NCBI RefSeq assembly: GCF_900166635.1
Contig: NZ_LT800497.1
Coordinates: forward strand, 2,962,344-3,026,343
Source: Oceanobacillus timonensis
GTDB lineage: Bacteria; Bacillota; Bacilli; Bacillales; Amphibacillaceae
Length of the DNA stretch: 64,000 nt
Direction: 5' to 3'
Position numbers and translations under genes: made by a program. The notes under the pieces were generated by a model, which did not search any database, was not told the DNA's origin, and worked only from the letters and a program-made list of their open reading frames with translations. Positions 38,174-43,251 of this stretch are shown piece by piece. Each line of letters opens with the position of its first letter. Position 1 is the first letter of the stretch.

Positions 38174-38354
38174 CACGTTAAAAACACCTCTCCCCGAAAC
38201 CTCAAACCGTCTCTTCTCTTATCCATTAATAAATATCTTTCGTATTTCTTATACGCACGCTCCCATTTTTCTGACCAGATTCTTATCCATAAACGTGCAT
38301 TAAAAAATAATCTTTTCTTTCCATTCCGGCGCATAGCTTGGTAATTGTTTACAA

Positions 38355-38383
38355 GCATAAAAAATAACTTTTTCATCAAAATA
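38355..38383 (+). promoter_or_regulatory. candidate forespore (SigG/SigF) promoter of the spoVA2-like operon
   Basis: GCATA (38355-38359), 17 bases, then CAAAATA (38377-38383). The SigG pattern is about GHATR, 17-18 bases, CATNHTA; there is one mismatch in the -10. The ribosome site of the first gene begins 18 bases further on. The call relies on short degenerate motifs. Confidence 0.4.
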
Positions 38384-38415
38384 ATAAGTGCAAGATATAA
38401 AAGGGAGTGAAGAAA

Positions 38416-38619
38416 ATGACAGTAGGTACACAAGTTCAACAAACTGTTTCAGGTTTAAAAAGTGCGCAGGCAAGTCTAGAGCAGTTTGCACTTCAAACTG
38501 ACAACAAACAGGCAAAACAGCTATATCAAAATGCAGCACAACAGACACAAGGTATTTTAGATCAGTTAGAACCGAGAGTACAACAAGTCATGCAGGAAGA
38601 ACCTCAATATAAACAGTAA
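38416..38619 (+). CDS. DUF1657 protein, first copy (spoVA2-like operon)
   Basis: A 67-residue helical protein beginning MTVGTQVQQTVSGLKSAQAS and ending EEPQYKQ, the typical DUF1657 ends. The core ASLEQFALQTDN-x-QAKQLY is repeated in the C-terminus of the DUF421 protein at the operon end. The ATG follows AAGGGAG at eight bases; a GTG at 38407 is less likely. DUF1657 genes open spoVA2-type operons. The molecular role is unknown. Confidence 0.88.
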   Translation: MTVGTQVQQTVSGLKSAQASLEQFALQTDNKQAKQLYQNAAQQTQGILDQLEPRVQQVMQEEPQYKQ

Positions 38620-38707
38620 AAAGACTTGTACAAACATGTAAAGAATCGGGAGACTATCTGTACAGTCTCCCCTGCTACATATCAGATAAAGAACAGGATG
38701 TGACTAT

Positions 38708-39154
38708 ATGCAATATAAACAAATACCCCTGCTGCTTCTCTTTATTATATTTTTAGTCGGGTGCCATCATACGAATGAATCTTCTAATTCAGAAAATCCG
38801 AACATCCAACATCTGTCCACAAATTCGTCTCAGGACACTGCAACACAGGCGAAAGAATTTCTGGAGAGTAAAGATGACATTCAAGCTGTTCACGCAGCAA
38901 ATACAAAGGATACGCTGCTGGTTACTATTGAAATACCCCACCATGAACGTTTCGCACTGCAGGATAAAAGAAAAGCCTACCAGAAGAAACTACAGCAAAT
39001 GTTTCCAGATTTCACGGTAGAACTATCAACGGACAAAAAGATTGTTCTTGAAACATCCAAACTGGAAGAAAAAATACAAAACCAATCACTAACAGAAGAA
39101 GAAATCAAGAAAAAAATAGAGAAAATCATACAATTATCCAAGGAACAGACTTGA
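38708..39154 (+). CDS. YhcN/YlaJ-family sporulation lipoprotein
   Basis: A 148-residue lipoprotein (signal ending FLVGC, lipid Cys19) with a Ser/Asn-rich linker and a YhcN/YlaJ-type alpha/beta domain (DIQAVHAANTKDTLLVTIEI). It ends in a charged helix. In other spore formers YhcN-like lipoproteins are found in the spore inner membrane. It lies second in the operon, matching the spoVA2mob gene order. Confidence 0.82.
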   Translation: MQYKQIPLLLLFIIFLVGCHHTNESSNSENPNIQHLSTNSSQDTATQAKEFLESKDDIQAVHAANTKDTLLVTIEIPHHERFALQDKRKAYQKKLQQMFPDFTVELSTDKKIVLETSKLEEKIQNQSLTEEEIKKKIEKIIQLSKEQT

Positions 39155-39205
39155 TGTCTGTTCCATCATCCTCTCTATTTATAACCTGAAAAGGAGTGCT
39201 ATGTA

Positions 39206-39685
39206 ATGGGAGACAAAAAGAAACAAAAGCTAAATCCGAATCAACAGCGTTATCAAGCTTTTCAGCAAAAGCGGGAAACAAAACGGCCTATCTTCAAAAA
39301 CTGCATCAAGGCTTTTCTTATCGGCGGATTCATCTGTTTCATCGGACAGCTCATTTCTACTTTTTATATTTATCAATTTAATTTCACAGAAAAAACAGCC
39401 GGGAATCCAACGACTGCTACATTGATTTTTATTACGATGCTGCTAACCGGATTTGGTGTTTATGATCGTATTGCACAATTTGCCGGAGCAGGAACGGCTG
39501 TGCCGGTAACCGGGTTTGGAAATGCTGTTATTTCTTCAGCCATTGAATATCGTTCAGAAGGCTTTGTCCTGGGTGTAGGAAGCAACATGCTTAAACTCGC
39601 CGGACCGGTTATTGTTTATGGTGTTTTTGCTGCATTTATCGTAGCCATCATTAAAACCATCCTGACGCAATGGGGGGGATTCTAA
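39206..39685 (+). CDS. spoVAC: SpoVAC channel protein
   Basis: A 159-residue membrane protein. A basic cytoplasmic N-terminus (GDKKKQKLNPNQQRYQAFQQ) is followed by about four membrane segments. The core FAGAGTAVPVTGFGNAV is the family signature also seen, in related form, in SpoVAE. SpoVAC is described as a mechanosensitive channel for Ca-dipicolinate movement across the spore inner membrane. AAAGGAG precedes the ATG. It overlaps spoVAD by one base (TAATG). Confidence 0.93.
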   Translation: MGDKKKQKLNPNQQRYQAFQQKRETKRPIFKNCIKAFLIGGFICFIGQLISTFYIYQFNFTEKTAGNPTTATLIFITMLLTGFGVYDRIAQFAGAGTAVPVTGFGNAVISSAIEYRSEGFVLGVGSNMLKLAGPVIVYGVFAAFIVAIIKTILTQWGGF

Positions 39686-40701
39686 TGCTGAAAGGACATC
39701 AATCCTGGGTTTTCGAAAACCATCCGGCAATTATTTCGACAGGTACTATCGGCGGACCTTTTGAAGCAAAAGGAAACATTCCGGAAGCATTTGATATGCT
39801 TCACGAAGATATGTGGGTCAATCAAGATTCTTGGGAAAAAGCACAGCAGAAAATGCTGGAAGAAGCATTACAGACAACATTAAAAAAAGCGCGGATTGAA
39901 AAGGAAAACGTTGAATTTTTAATTGCCGGTGACTTAATTAACCAAATGACACCGACCAGTTTTGCTGCAAGTACTAGCAGCATCCCTTTTCTGGGAACTT
40001 TCAGTGCTTGTGCCACCTCAATGGAAAGCTTAGCACTTGCTGCTTCCATTATCAATGCGAAAGGAGCAAATTATATTCTGTGCGCAGCTTCCAGCCATAA
40101 TGCGGCAACAGAAAAACAATTTCGCTATCCAACCGAATACGGCGGACAGAAACCTCCAACATCACAATGGACGGTAACTGGAGCTGGTTGTGCGCTTGTT
40201 GCTCAAAATGGCACAGGACCATCAGTTACATCAGCTACGATTGGAAAAGTAGCGGACATGGGAATGACGGACCCATTCAATATGGGCGGGGCAATGGCTA
40301 TTGCTGCTGTTGATACAATAGAGGCGCACTTCCGGGATATGGAGATTGATCCATCTTATTATGATTTAATCATCACTGGCGACCTCGGACATGTGGGAAG
40401 AGAAGTTTCTTTGGATTTATTACATGAGAGAAATATACCGATTGAAGCAGAAAAATATAAAGATTGCGGCATTGCTATCTATCGCGAAGATCAGCCGGTT
40501 CTTGCCGGCGGAAGCGGTGCAGCCTGCTCCGCCATCGTCACATATGGGCATTATCTTCAAGAAGTGATGAAAGGCAATTTAAAAAGGATTTTAGTAGTGG
40601 CTACCGGGTCTTTACATTCTACCTTAAGTATTCAGCAAAAAGCACCTATACCATGTATTGCACATGCTGTGTCAATCGAAGCAAGAGGTGAACAGTTATG
40701 A
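39685..40701 (+). CDS. spoVAD: SpoVAD dipicolinate-binding protein
   Basis: A 338-residue thiolase-fold protein; SpoVAD binds dipicolinic acid and is needed for its uptake into the forespore. The start is ATG at 39685 ([20 protein letters not shown]), with GGGGGG just before it; the frame runs five codons further upstream inside spoVAC. Recognisable blocks are [14 protein letters not shown], the Cys region of the thiolase fold, and [11 protein letters not shown]. Full length. It overlaps spoVAEb by four bases. Confidence 0.95.
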
Positions 40702-41048
40702 TTTTTTTCTGGGCATTCGTTATCGGAGGGCTTATCTGCGTTATTGGACAAATAATGTTCGATGTATTTAAGTTATCTCCAGCACATACATTAACCATTT
40801 TAGTTATTTCTGGAGCTGTTCTCGATGGAATCGGCTGGTATGAACCACTTATTGATTTTGCAGGAGCGGGAGTAACCGTCCCCATCACAAGCTTTGGGAA
40901 TTCATTAGTCCACGGAGCCATACAAGAAGCGGAAACACATGGACTCATCGGCGTCGTAACCGGTATGTTTGAGGTAACAAGTGCCGGTATTTCTGCAGCT
41001 ATTATATTTGGCGTCATTGGAGCCATCATATTTAAACCAAAAGGTTAG
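40698..41048 (+). CDS. spoVAEb: SpoVAEb membrane protein
   Basis: A 116-residue membrane protein with about four helices and the signature [21 protein letters not shown]. The C-terminus ends in a short basic tail (FKPKG). It lacks the SpoVAEa domain, so it is the b-type subunit. It starts within the spoVAD stop (ATGA overlap), so the two should be translated together. It is expected to form the dipicolinate channel with SpoVAC. Confidence 0.93.
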
Positions 41049-41059
41049 GGAGATGCTTT

Positions 41060-41263
41060 ATGACAGTAGGATCACAAGTAAAAACATGTTACGCTACATT
41101 AAAATCAATTGAAGCAGGTCTGGACTTATTACATGCTTCAACAACTGAACAGGATTTAAAGAACACGATTGAGGAAGTAACTGGTTTCATAAAAGATGCA
41201 CGGCATGATATGCATCAGCAAGTTATTTATATGGATAAACAAGAGCCGCAATATAAGTCATAA
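41060..41263 (+). CDS. DUF1657 protein, second copy
   Basis: A 67-residue paralogue of the first operon gene. It begins MTVGSQVKTCYATLKSIEAG and ends KQEPQYKS, but the central FALQTDN block is replaced by LHASTTEQ, so it has diverged. It sits between spoVAEb and the DUF421 gene, the position seen in spoVA2mob operons. GGGAGATGC precedes the ATG. Confidence 0.88.
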   Translation: MTVGSQVKTCYATLKSIEAGLDLLHASTTEQDLKNTIEEVTGFIKDARHDMHQQVIYMDKQEPQYKS

Positions 41264-41275
41264 GGAGGGAAAATT

Positions 41276-42136
41276 ATGCCAGAATGGATATCGATTATTA
41301 TTCGCTCCATTATTTTAATCACCGTTTTATTTTTCTTTGTTAAGTGGCTAGGGGCAAAACAGCTGTCACAACTTAATATTTTTGAAACCATATCCGGCAT
41401 TGTACTTGGAGGAATAGCCGCTTTTCATACAGTCGATCCGTACAGCAGTTTTTATTATGCTTTATTAGCGATGTTTGTCTGGTTTATTGCTGCATTTACA
41501 ATTGAAAAATTATCTTTGAAAAGCAAACGAATCCGGGACTTCACAGATGGAAAGAGCACGGTTTTTATACAAAATGGAAAGATTATGGAGGAGAATTTAA
41601 AAAAAGAAGGTTATTCTACAGATGATCTGTTGGAAAAACTACGAAATAATAACCAATTTCTTGTTTCTGATGTGGAATTTGCTGTCCTGGAACCGACCGG
41701 AGAATTAAATGTGTTGCCCAAAAAAGAAAATCAGCCGGTTACCTTAAAAGACTTAAAAATTACCTCTGCACCGGCTAAAGAACCACAGACAGTCATCGCT
41801 GACGGAAATATACTACTGGAACCTCTGGCGAACGCCTCATTAAATCCCGCTTGGCTGGAGACAGAGCTAGAAAAACAAAATGTAACAGTAGACAATGTTT
41901 TCCTTGGCCAAGTCGATCATCAAGGCCAATTATTTCTGGACCTTTACGACGATCATATTGCAGTACCTGAACCTGCTCAACCGGCTCTGTTATTGGCCAG
42001 TATGAAAAAATGCCAAGCAGATTTAGAATTATTTGCCTTAGCAACAGACAACCCGGAAGCAAAAGTGTTATATGAACGAAACCAAAAACGGCTGCAAGAA
42101 GTTGTGAATCGAATGGAGCCTTTCTTAACATCATGA
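41276..42136 (+). CDS. DUF421 (YetF-like) membrane protein with fused DUF1657 domain
   Basis: A 286-residue protein. Three membrane helices fill residues 1-75 (IRSIILITVLFFFVKWLGAK and so on), followed by the DUF421 cytoplasmic domain (about 80-220). The last 50 residues (SMKKCQADLELFALATDNPE, then AKVLY...RMEPFL) clearly resemble the DUF1657 core of the operon's first gene. The fusion suggests that DUF1657 proteins work at the DUF421 membrane protein. AAGGAGG precedes the ATG. In spoVA2mob studies this gene type contributes to spore heat resistance, as I recall. Confidence 0.9.
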   Translation: MPEWISIIIRSIILITVLFFFVKWLGAKQLSQLNIFETISGIVLGGIAAFHTVDPYSSFYYALLAMFVWFIAAFTIEKLSLKSKRIRDFTDGKSTVFIQNGKIMEENLKKEGYSTDDLLEKLRNNNQFLVSDVEFAVLEPTGELNVLPKKENQPVTLKDLKITSAPAKEPQTVIADGNILLEPLANASLNPAWLETELEKQNVTVDNVFLGQVDHQGQLFLDLYDDHIAVPEPAQPALLLASMKKCQADLELFALATDNPEAKVLYERNQKRLQEVVNRMEPFLTS

Positions 42137-42183
42137 ATATATGTCAAAAACAGCATTATATTTCACCAGTACCAATAAAAAAG

Positions 42184-42235
42184 AAGGCAGCGGGACTTCT
42201 ATGCTGCATACTGGTCCCCTGCCTTTACTTTTTAA
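42184..42235 (+). terminator. terminator of the spoVA2-like operon
   Basis: AAGGCAGCGGGAC pairs with GTCCCCTGCCTT around a 17-base loop; TACTTTTTAAT follows. Confidence 0.85.
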
Positions 42236-42270
42236 TAAAATAAAACTGTTCCTAGTCTATATAATCATTT

Positions 42271-43251
42271 TTAAGAAATACGGATGATTACTTTTCCAAA
42301 CTGTTTTCCCTCATCTAAATAACTGAATGCTTCCAGACTTTGATCTAAGGAAAAGATGCGGTCGACAACGGGATGCAATTGATAATTTTCTGCATGCTTT
42401 AACGCTGCCCTCAGTTCTTCTCGACAACCCATCGTGGAACCAATCAGTTTATATTGACCATAAAAGAAGGCACGTAAATCAAAATCTATCACATCCTCTG
42501 TCGTTGCGCCGAATGTAACAAACCTGCCTCCTTTTTTCAAAATAGCCAGAGAACGGTGAAAAGTTGCTTTTCCATTACTATCAATGACCATATCAACCGT
42601 TTCATTACCTAATTTTTCTTCCCAATCATCTGCTGTATCAATGACAACATCAGCTCCAAGTTCACGAGCTTTTTCTCTTTTCTCTTCACTCCGGGAAGTG
42701 GTAATTACCCGCGCCCCGATATTTTTAGCGAATGCAATTAAATAAGTTGCAACACCGCCGCCTGCTCCAGGTATAAAGACCGTGTCTGTTTTTTGCAGCT
42801 GGCCTTTTGTAAACATTGCCCGATATCCCGTTAATGCAGCTAATGGAAAAGCCGCCGCTTCTTCCCAGCTCATATAAGCCGGTTTTGGCTCTACTTGATC
42901 TTCGGAAATGACTATCTTTTCTGCAAACGTGCCATGGTCAGGCATCCCCAGAATATCAAATTCTTTGGGCGGAGCTTCACTGTTTTGTTCCCAACGTAAA
43001 GACGGATTAATGATGACTTCATCTCCAATTTTTACATCAATAACGTTTTTACCGATTTCTTCAATGATTCCTGCTCCATCTGAACCAAGAATTAATGCTT
43101 CTTCCGATTCTTTTCTGCGGCCGGGGATACCCAGGTCCCTCCGGTTAAGTCCTGCCGCTTTCAATTTCACTACCACTTCTGATCCCCCTGGCTCCAGAGG
43201 TTCCATTTCTGTCATATGCAAACCGTCATTTTCATGTACTAATGCCCGCAT
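42271..43251 (-). CDS. zinc-type alcohol dehydrogenase-like oxidoreductase (YogA-like)
   Basis: A 326-residue medium-chain dehydrogenase/reductase. It has a GroES-like N-terminus (AGLNRRDL, GSDGAGIIEEIG) and a Rossmann domain with IPGAGGGVATYLI (about 156-168). The catalytic-zinc Cys/His set is not evident, so it may be a zinc-free quinone-reductase-type enzyme using NADPH. The substrate is unknown. GGAGG precedes the ATG. Its start overlaps the 3' end of the ArsA-like gene by 20 bases, so the two are probably cotranscribed. Confidence 0.85.
   Translation of the reverse strand: MRALVHENDGLHMTEMEPLEPGGSEVVVKLKAAGLNRRDLGIPGRRKESEEALILGSDGAGIIEEIGKNVIDVKIGDEVIINPSLRWEQNSEAPPKEFDILGMPDHGTFAEKIVISEDQVEPKPAYMSWEEAAAFPLAALTGYRAMFTKGQLQKTDTVFIPGAGGGVATYLIAFAKNIGARVITTSRSEEKREKARELGADVVIDTADDWEEKLGNETVDMVIDSNGKATFHRSLAILKKGGRFVTFGATTEDVIDFDLRAFFYGQYKLIGSTMGCREELRAALKHAENYQLHPVVDRIFSLDQSLEAFSYLDEGKQFGKVIIRIS

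Follow-up and report, generated by a model that had tools for sequence, protein, structure and literature searches.

Does the spoVA2mob-like operon in the chromosome of Oceanobacillus timonensis (Amphibacillaceae) represent a mobile addition, a second set beside a classical spoVA operon, or the only SpoVA channel genes that the organism has? The operon occupies positions 38416-42136 of a 64,000-nucleotide stretch (the window; RefSeq assembly GCF_900166635.1, contig NZ_LT800497.1, here C3, positions 2962344-3026343) and encodes SpoVAC, SpoVAD and SpoVAEb, which the available portion of PMC11841064 describes as the minimal channel for calcium dipicolinate (Ca-DPA). We consider it probable that the operon is of spoVA2 type, has long been resident and was inherited vertically, and that it contains the only intact AC-AD-AEb core of the genome, the classical core having gone from its own site, where the gating module has been kept. 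This reading is built on observed gene content, the sole intact copy, the split itself, synteny and phylogeny.

The Only Intact SpoVA Core and the Classical Site

Profile searches of the assembly (4.49 Mb, 99.99% complete) returned a single SpoVAD match. Given that the genome has one SpoVAD, the window operon is its only intact AC-AD-AEb set. Three SpoVAC/AEb-family matches were obtained, two in the window and one at C3:1316323. The last of these belongs to a remnant (locus L004, 7207-8653; G000:C3 about 1315206-1316652) that lies 1.7 Mb from the operon and comprises SpoVAEb with an early stop, a whole-looking DUF1657 frame and a 2Duf frame broken by a stop. It is a decayed partial second copy, next to which no spoVAC or spoVAD was detected. 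The remnant has a catalase gene on one side and a CotF-domain gene on the other, with a second catalase gene further out and an integrase-core transposase frame (IS3-like is our own label) ∼5 kb away.

SpoVAA was located at C3:2354479, 647,558 bases from SpoVAD. Read directly, this site has the order spoIIAA-spoIIAB-sigF-spoVAA-spoVAB-spoVAF-lysA, with a gap of 94 nt between spoVAB and spoVAF, and it contains none of spoVAC, spoVAD, spoVAEb and spoVAEa. Here, SpoVAA was assigned by PF12164 and SpoVAB by PF13782 (115 bits), and SpoVAF is a GerA-family protein named by its place. In L052, a reference locus with the classical arrangement from the same family, spoVAC-AD-AEb-AEa lies exactly between spoVAB and spoVAF, and its spoIIAA, spoIIAB, sigF, spoVAEa and lysA proteins pass NCBIfam cut-offs. 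The contiguous AA-AB-AC-AD-AEb run expected between sigF and lysA in a classical operon was therefore not found in O. timonensis. DpaB is encoded at C3:2780219, and the SpoVAF partner FigP (YqhR) at C3:2636110.

The original prediction, made from the sequence alone, had proposed that the window operon was either the sole or a second SpoVA set and had suggested a genome search for spoVAA-AF. The operon proved to be the sole set of intact AC-AD-AEb genes, although spoVA genes are present elsewhere too; the search recovered spoVAA-AB-AF at the classical site, and AC, AD, AEb and AEa were not there.

Distribution of the Split Arrangement

The positions of SpoVAA and SpoVAD were surveyed in 119 genomes of the family. 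SpoVAD scored over the cut-off in 116 genomes (G074, with a weak match under the cut-off, was counted as lacking it) and SpoVAA in 106. Among the 106 SpoVAA-bearing genomes, the two are split in 98 and adjacent in 8. The split pairs lie on one contig in 40 genomes (80 to 648 kb apart) and on different contigs in 58, and all 8 adjacent genomes belong to one genus, g15. Ten of the other survey genomes have SpoVAD without SpoVAA, and three have neither. SpoVAEa is kept in 22/98 split and 8/8 adjacent genomes; at least one DUF1657 match, wherever located, was obtained in 73/98 split genomes, in 0/8 adjacent genomes and in 0/10 of those without SpoVAA. FigP is present in 113/119 family genomes, including that of O. 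timonensis.

None of 26 split family sites read (23 survey genomes, comprising 21 of the 40 same-contig and 2 of the 58 different-contig cases, and three named Oceanobacillus) has AC-AD-AEb between AB and AF. The core occupies that position in 5/5 sites read from g15 (L052, L071-L074), the only surveyed-family genus seen with a complete classical operon.

Outside the family, seven sites are without the core (Cytobacillus oceanisediminis, C. gottheilii, a record named Sporosarcina globispora, Aneurinibacillus, B. testis, Neobacillus niacini and B. massiliglaciei; loci L266, L267, L268, L269, L270, L274 and L276). Eight bear it (Fictibacillus, Metabacillus, Geobacillus, Alkalihalobacterium, B. 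solitudinis, Parageobacillus, Thalassobacillus and Thermolongibacillus), and each of these eight genomes holds at least one further SpoVAD. The seven and eight do not form a fair sample, because the genomes were picked from a ranking by similarity to the window SpoVAD. Given that the arrangement is seen in other genera (Cytobacillus, Neobacillus, Aneurinibacillus, B. testis and B. massiliglaciei), the split is not confined to a single occurrence. L267, recorded as Sporosarcina globispora, clusters with Cytobacillus.

Several further observations concern SpoVAD content. Two genomes (G008 and G051; loci L080 and L079) have divergent SpoVADs of 319 and 328 bits, compared with about 450-530 for most full-length proteins, and gave no SpoVAA or FigP matches. 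Two spoVA2-type copies each were found in G094 (L107/L108) and G048 (L095), and decayed second SpoVADs in G027 and G065. Operons of spoVA2 type also appear in records whose names fit poorly, namely L124 (Sphingomonas sp. PsM26), H14 (a Klebsiella grimontii plasmid record) and L139 (named B. subtilis DE0224, a genome with no SpoVAA match); contamination or mislabelling perhaps accounts for these.

Phylogeny and Chromosomal Context

In a tree of 151 SpoVAD entries, the 13 from classical operons form one clade at 100. The window SpoVAD falls in a set of 39 family entries (the window and 38 others) at 99, of which 32 are 2Duf-linked. In a second tree of 64 hand-picked entries, for which SpoVAC, SpoVAD and SpoVAEb were joined, the 11 classical entries lie on one side of a branch at 100, and 26 of the 27 chosen non-classical family entries form one clade at 98, with L109 left outside. 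Placing the window with the classical SpoVAC/AD/AEb entries, the grouping named by the original prediction as evidence to the contrary, was rejected by the approximately unbiased (AU) test (p = 0.0142). In both trees, L191, a copy on a B. velezensis plasmid, belongs to a different group from the window. Further plasmid copies occur in Priestia and Metabacillus. The window operon thus has a non-classical, resident core with linked 2duf, outside both the classical clade and the lineage of the Tn1546-like copy.

The surroundings of the operon are conserved as well. Characteristic neighbors (nitroreductase/YwpF/TrkH upstream or ADH/ArsA downstream) were found at 53/57 family loci, on both sides at 32 of them, and at 1/80 non-family loci; one family locus and two outside loci are entered twice in these sets. 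The four family exceptions are L095, L107 and L109, from genomes with two sets, and L063. More generally, some near-identical copies are present in the locus sets used for promoter, hairpin and neighbor counts, and a few genomes were entered in duplicate (L100/L116, L146/L257, L181/L275). No transposase was found among 15 flanking proteins scanned. The operon is resident, not mobile, as had been proposed from the sequence; the conserved neighbors, the family placement in the trees and the transposase-free flanks bear this out. The nearest named SpoVADs in a database comparison are those of Oceanobacillus oncorhynchi (94%) and O. sojae (93%), and the joined classical-site proteins are 91% identical to those of O. 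oncorhynchi.

Operon Layout, Promoter-like Sites and Hairpin

All seven reading frames are intact, in the tightly packed order originally read from the sequence (Table 1). The overlaps noted then within spoVAC-AD-AEb were likewise recovered: 1 base between spoVAC and spoVAD (TAATG) and 4 bases between spoVAD and spoVAEb (ATGA). The order was also recognized as that of spoVA2mob, and it equals the published one as given in the legend of PMC5133452. Given that the full order recurs in 27/57 family loci and 28/80 loci outside the family, it is not due to chance.

Table 1. Positions of the operon genes and associated features in the window
Feature	Coordinates	Strand	Basis or remark
Sigma-G-like promoter (predicted), GCATA-17-CAAAATA	38355..38383	+	11/12 consensus positions; ends 32 nt before first ATG
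DUF1657 gene 1	38416..38619	+	PF07870, 78.9 bits
Hairpin, GGGAGACT-loop-AGTCTCCC	38648..38671	+	Gap between DUF1657 gene 1 and lipoprotein gene
YhcN/YlaJ-type spore lipoprotein gene	38708..39154	+	PF09580, 23.6 bits (cut-off 26.3); position as in annotated relatives
spoVAC	39206..39685	+	Equivalog TIGR02838, 214.2 bits (cut-off 164)
spoVAD	39685..40701	+	PF07451, 515.1 bits; genome's only SpoVAD
spoVAEb	40698..41048	+	SpoVAE equivalog TIGR02839, 160.7 bits (cut-off 131.1)
DUF1657 gene 2	41060..41263	+	PF07870, 25.2 bits (cut-off 27.7); position as in relatives
2duf (YetF N-domain, DUF421/YetF C-domain, DUF1657)	41276..42136	+	Pfam

The lipoprotein and the second DUF1657 protein score below their Pfam cut-offs and were named by position as well as score. 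For DUF1657 gene 1, the ATG at 38416 was taken, the start in the open reading frame list being a GTG at 38407. For spoVAD, the ATG at 39685 was used, the list beginning at an upstream ATG at 39670. 2Duf matches the YetF crystal chain 3c6f (E = 8e-18).

The promoter-like site before the operon, which is suggestive only, was scored against what we take to be the sigma-G consensus. Scores of at least 11/12 were obtained for 24/31 family upstream stretches, as compared with 22% of shuffles. In 20 of these 31, the distance from the best site to the end of the stretch is 32-54 nt; in the remaining 11, the best site is elsewhere. At the classical site, a 12/12 match is present in 18/45 loci, as compared with 0.6% of shuffles. 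Internal sigma-70-type sites in the operon numbered 21, as against 18.3 expected.

A strong stem was found in 51/79 gaps between the first and second genes, as compared with 2/79 shuffled sequences. When only distinct gap sequences were counted, the figure was 46/74, made up of 46/60 non-clostridial and 0/14 clostridial-type sequences. A local fold of -8 kcal/mol or lower was obtained for 56/61 gaps and 18/61 shuffled sequences; both controls used one shuffle per sequence. Compensatory changes were observed at 9/9 stem pairs among 27 hand-picked hairpin-bearing sequences out of the 79 gaps. Many relatives have the arms AAGGTTGG..CCAACCTT at the same place, and the plasmid locus L191 also has a hairpin after its first gene. 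No Rfam match to the hairpin was found up to E = 1 in window positions 38200-42300. An intrinsic terminator was considered and rejected: the window copy is without a T-run, and a T-run follows in 9/51 strong stems of relatives. The hairpin may end or stabilize the transcript of the first gene, as a possible attenuator or 3' stabilizer.

Alternative Explanations

The alternative that survives best, and one that we regard as rather unlikely, is that the split is original: the lineage would never have had a core between AB and AF, and the classical operons would have arisen by core insertion elsewhere. The split is shared by Aneurinibacillus, and in a Clostridium genome (G146) SpoVAD sets were found without any SpoVAA match. 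On a classical-site tree of 45 entries, core presence needs four changes, two of which are forced by well-supported branches, and parsimony leaves the direction of change unsettled. By contrast, Thalassobacillus and g15, which lie beside and inside the family on this tree, have the core at the classical site, and their SpoVADs form a group within the classical clade (96 in the 151-entry tree and 94 in the 64-entry tree). Given that these two keep the classical core and that their cores group together, the family ancestor would appear to have had it, and loss within the family is likely.

It is improbable that the AA-AB-AF operon is a vestige and that the spoVA2-type channel works alone. The ten family genomes with SpoVAD and no SpoVAA imply that channel genes can exist without SpoVAA, and the description of AC-AD-AEb as a minimal channel (PMC11841064, in the portion available) points the same way. 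However, SpoVAA scores over its cut-off in 106 of the 116 SpoVAD genomes, its matched region is free of stops, and AB and AF adjoin it in 26/26 family sites read.

Recent Tn1546-type acquisition with decayed transposon ends is very improbable. The gene order is identical to that of the B. velezensis plasmid copy L191, which has a Tn3-family transposase and a recombinase alongside, and family members sometimes gain copies, as with L109 in G003, which groups outside the family clade and was likely acquired. Recent transfer is nevertheless contradicted by the shared chromosomal neighbors across the family, by the placement of the window apart from the lineage of the plasmid copy and by the flanks themselves. 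No long inverted repeat suggestive of a transposon, nor any of the mobile remnants that the original prediction had named as contrary evidence, was seen beside the operon. The guanine plus cytosine content is 40.3% in the operon and 38.3% in the flanks, and the genes further out (citrate synthase, isocitrate and malate dehydrogenases, CstA, SCO1) are ordinary chromosomal ones. Tn1546-like carriage with transposase or resolvase was thus not found for the window operon. Least probable of all is a second set conferring extra heat resistance beside a complete classical operon, a state found in Geobacillus, Parageobacillus, Fictibacillus, Metabacillus and others and, according to the available part of PMC10126465, in B. 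cereus, since O. timonensis, unless its assembly is in error, has one SpoVAD and a classical site without AC-AD-AEb.

The reading of a replaced core with retained gating genes has also to bear several contrary points. Both trees are quick ones built without bootstraps; the classical clade sits on a long stem, so that long-branch effects are possible; and several family entries without 2Duf fall elsewhere in the SpoVAD tree, some on long branches, most of these strays being left out of the 64-entry tree. Because the outgroup Aneurinibacillus is also split, the direction of change is not fixed across the order. In the survey, SpoVAD is partial or broken in 4/116 genomes (G025, G029, G070, G072), and only 2/58 different-contig classical sites were read. 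The 11/12 sigma-G score before the first gene is equalled by 22% of shuffled sequences, and the O. timonensis classical site has only a 10/12 match, equalled by 77%. Finally, we infer expression, protein partnership, phenotype and the loss, as opposed to original absence, of the classical core.

Discussion

The best reading of these data is that the DPA channel AC-AD-AEb has been replaced by a spoVA2-type one, here 2Duf-linked, and that the classical gating proteins AA, AB and AF/FigP have been kept. Given that the classical site no longer has its core, the Ca-DPA machine is encoded by distant operons. The boundary of the split coincides with the division between channel and gating proteins drawn in the review PMC11841064; in the portion available, loss of AA or AB is described as causing premature germination that is suppressed by removal of gerA, and SpoVAF/FigP as an ion channel accelerating germination.

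The simplest working model would be a spoVA2-type pore under classical AA/AB control. The window operon would supply the channel module, AC, AD and AEb, with 2Duf, two DUF1657 proteins and the YhcN-type lipoprotein as accessories; the classical site would supply the gating and amplifier module AA, AB and AF, and FigP would come from a third place. Sigma-G would drive transcription of both operons in the forespore. AC and AEb would form the inner-membrane pore, AD would be its DPA-binding plug, and AA/AB would hold it against too-early opening. AF/FigP would release ions and so help to trigger the pore, and 2Duf would raise the resistance of the inner membrane.

Comparison with known systems sets the locus apart from each of them. 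The spoVA2mob operon on Tn1546 in the B. subtilis group (PMC5133452, of which part was available) has the same seven genes in the same order; its SpoVAC/AD/AEb lie on the same non-classical side of the tree, and the hairpin after the first gene is present in both, L191 being called Tn1546-like because its neighbors match the legend of that source. By contrast, the window operon is without a transposon, belongs to a separate lineage and is the sole intact core instead of an extra. The chromosomal three-gene spoVA set with 2duf in the B. cereus group is likewise resident and has the same seven-gene layout, but that group also has the classical seven-gene operon (PMC10126465, in the part available), the core of which is missing from O. 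timonensis. With the classical spoVAA-AB-AC-AD-AEb-AEa-AF operon (B. subtilis, in the available portion of PMC11841064; L052), O. timonensis shares the sigF-lysA site and the retained AA, AB and AF, whereas AC, AD, AEb and AEa are absent there and the core in use is of another clade. The genes and their order are already known; what is unusual is that this is the only intact core here, that the classical operon retains just its controlling genes and that the arrangement is found in most surveyed family genomes and again elsewhere. No description of the split was found in the literature searched, including the accessible parts of PMC5133452, PMC10126465, PMC3533761 and PMC11841064; reviews in subscription journals may hold one.

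A bolder proposal, toward which we are about equally inclined and disinclined, is that the channel has parted along a functional seam throughout a large Bacillales family and once more in Cytobacillus/Neobacillus. A non-classical pore core at another site, 2Duf-linked in many of these genomes, would have taken the place of the original one, and the old gating proteins would have been kept, now controlling a foreign pore. The spoVA2-type channel would then be standard in 2Duf-linked members and not an optional heat-resistance trait, and the conserved, covarying hairpin would set the ratio of DUF1657 to channel protein.

In the accepted model, there is a single spoVA operon of seven genes, to which spoVA2mob is an optional, mobile addition; in O. 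timonensis, the sole intact core is of this optional type. Scoring gene by gene for the presence of spoVAA or spoVAD would hide the split. Split species are natural experiments for telling pore-forming from gating SpoVA proteins, and they also test the role of 2Duf without a classical channel. Outside the B. cereus group, too, operons of the spoVA2 type have long been resident.

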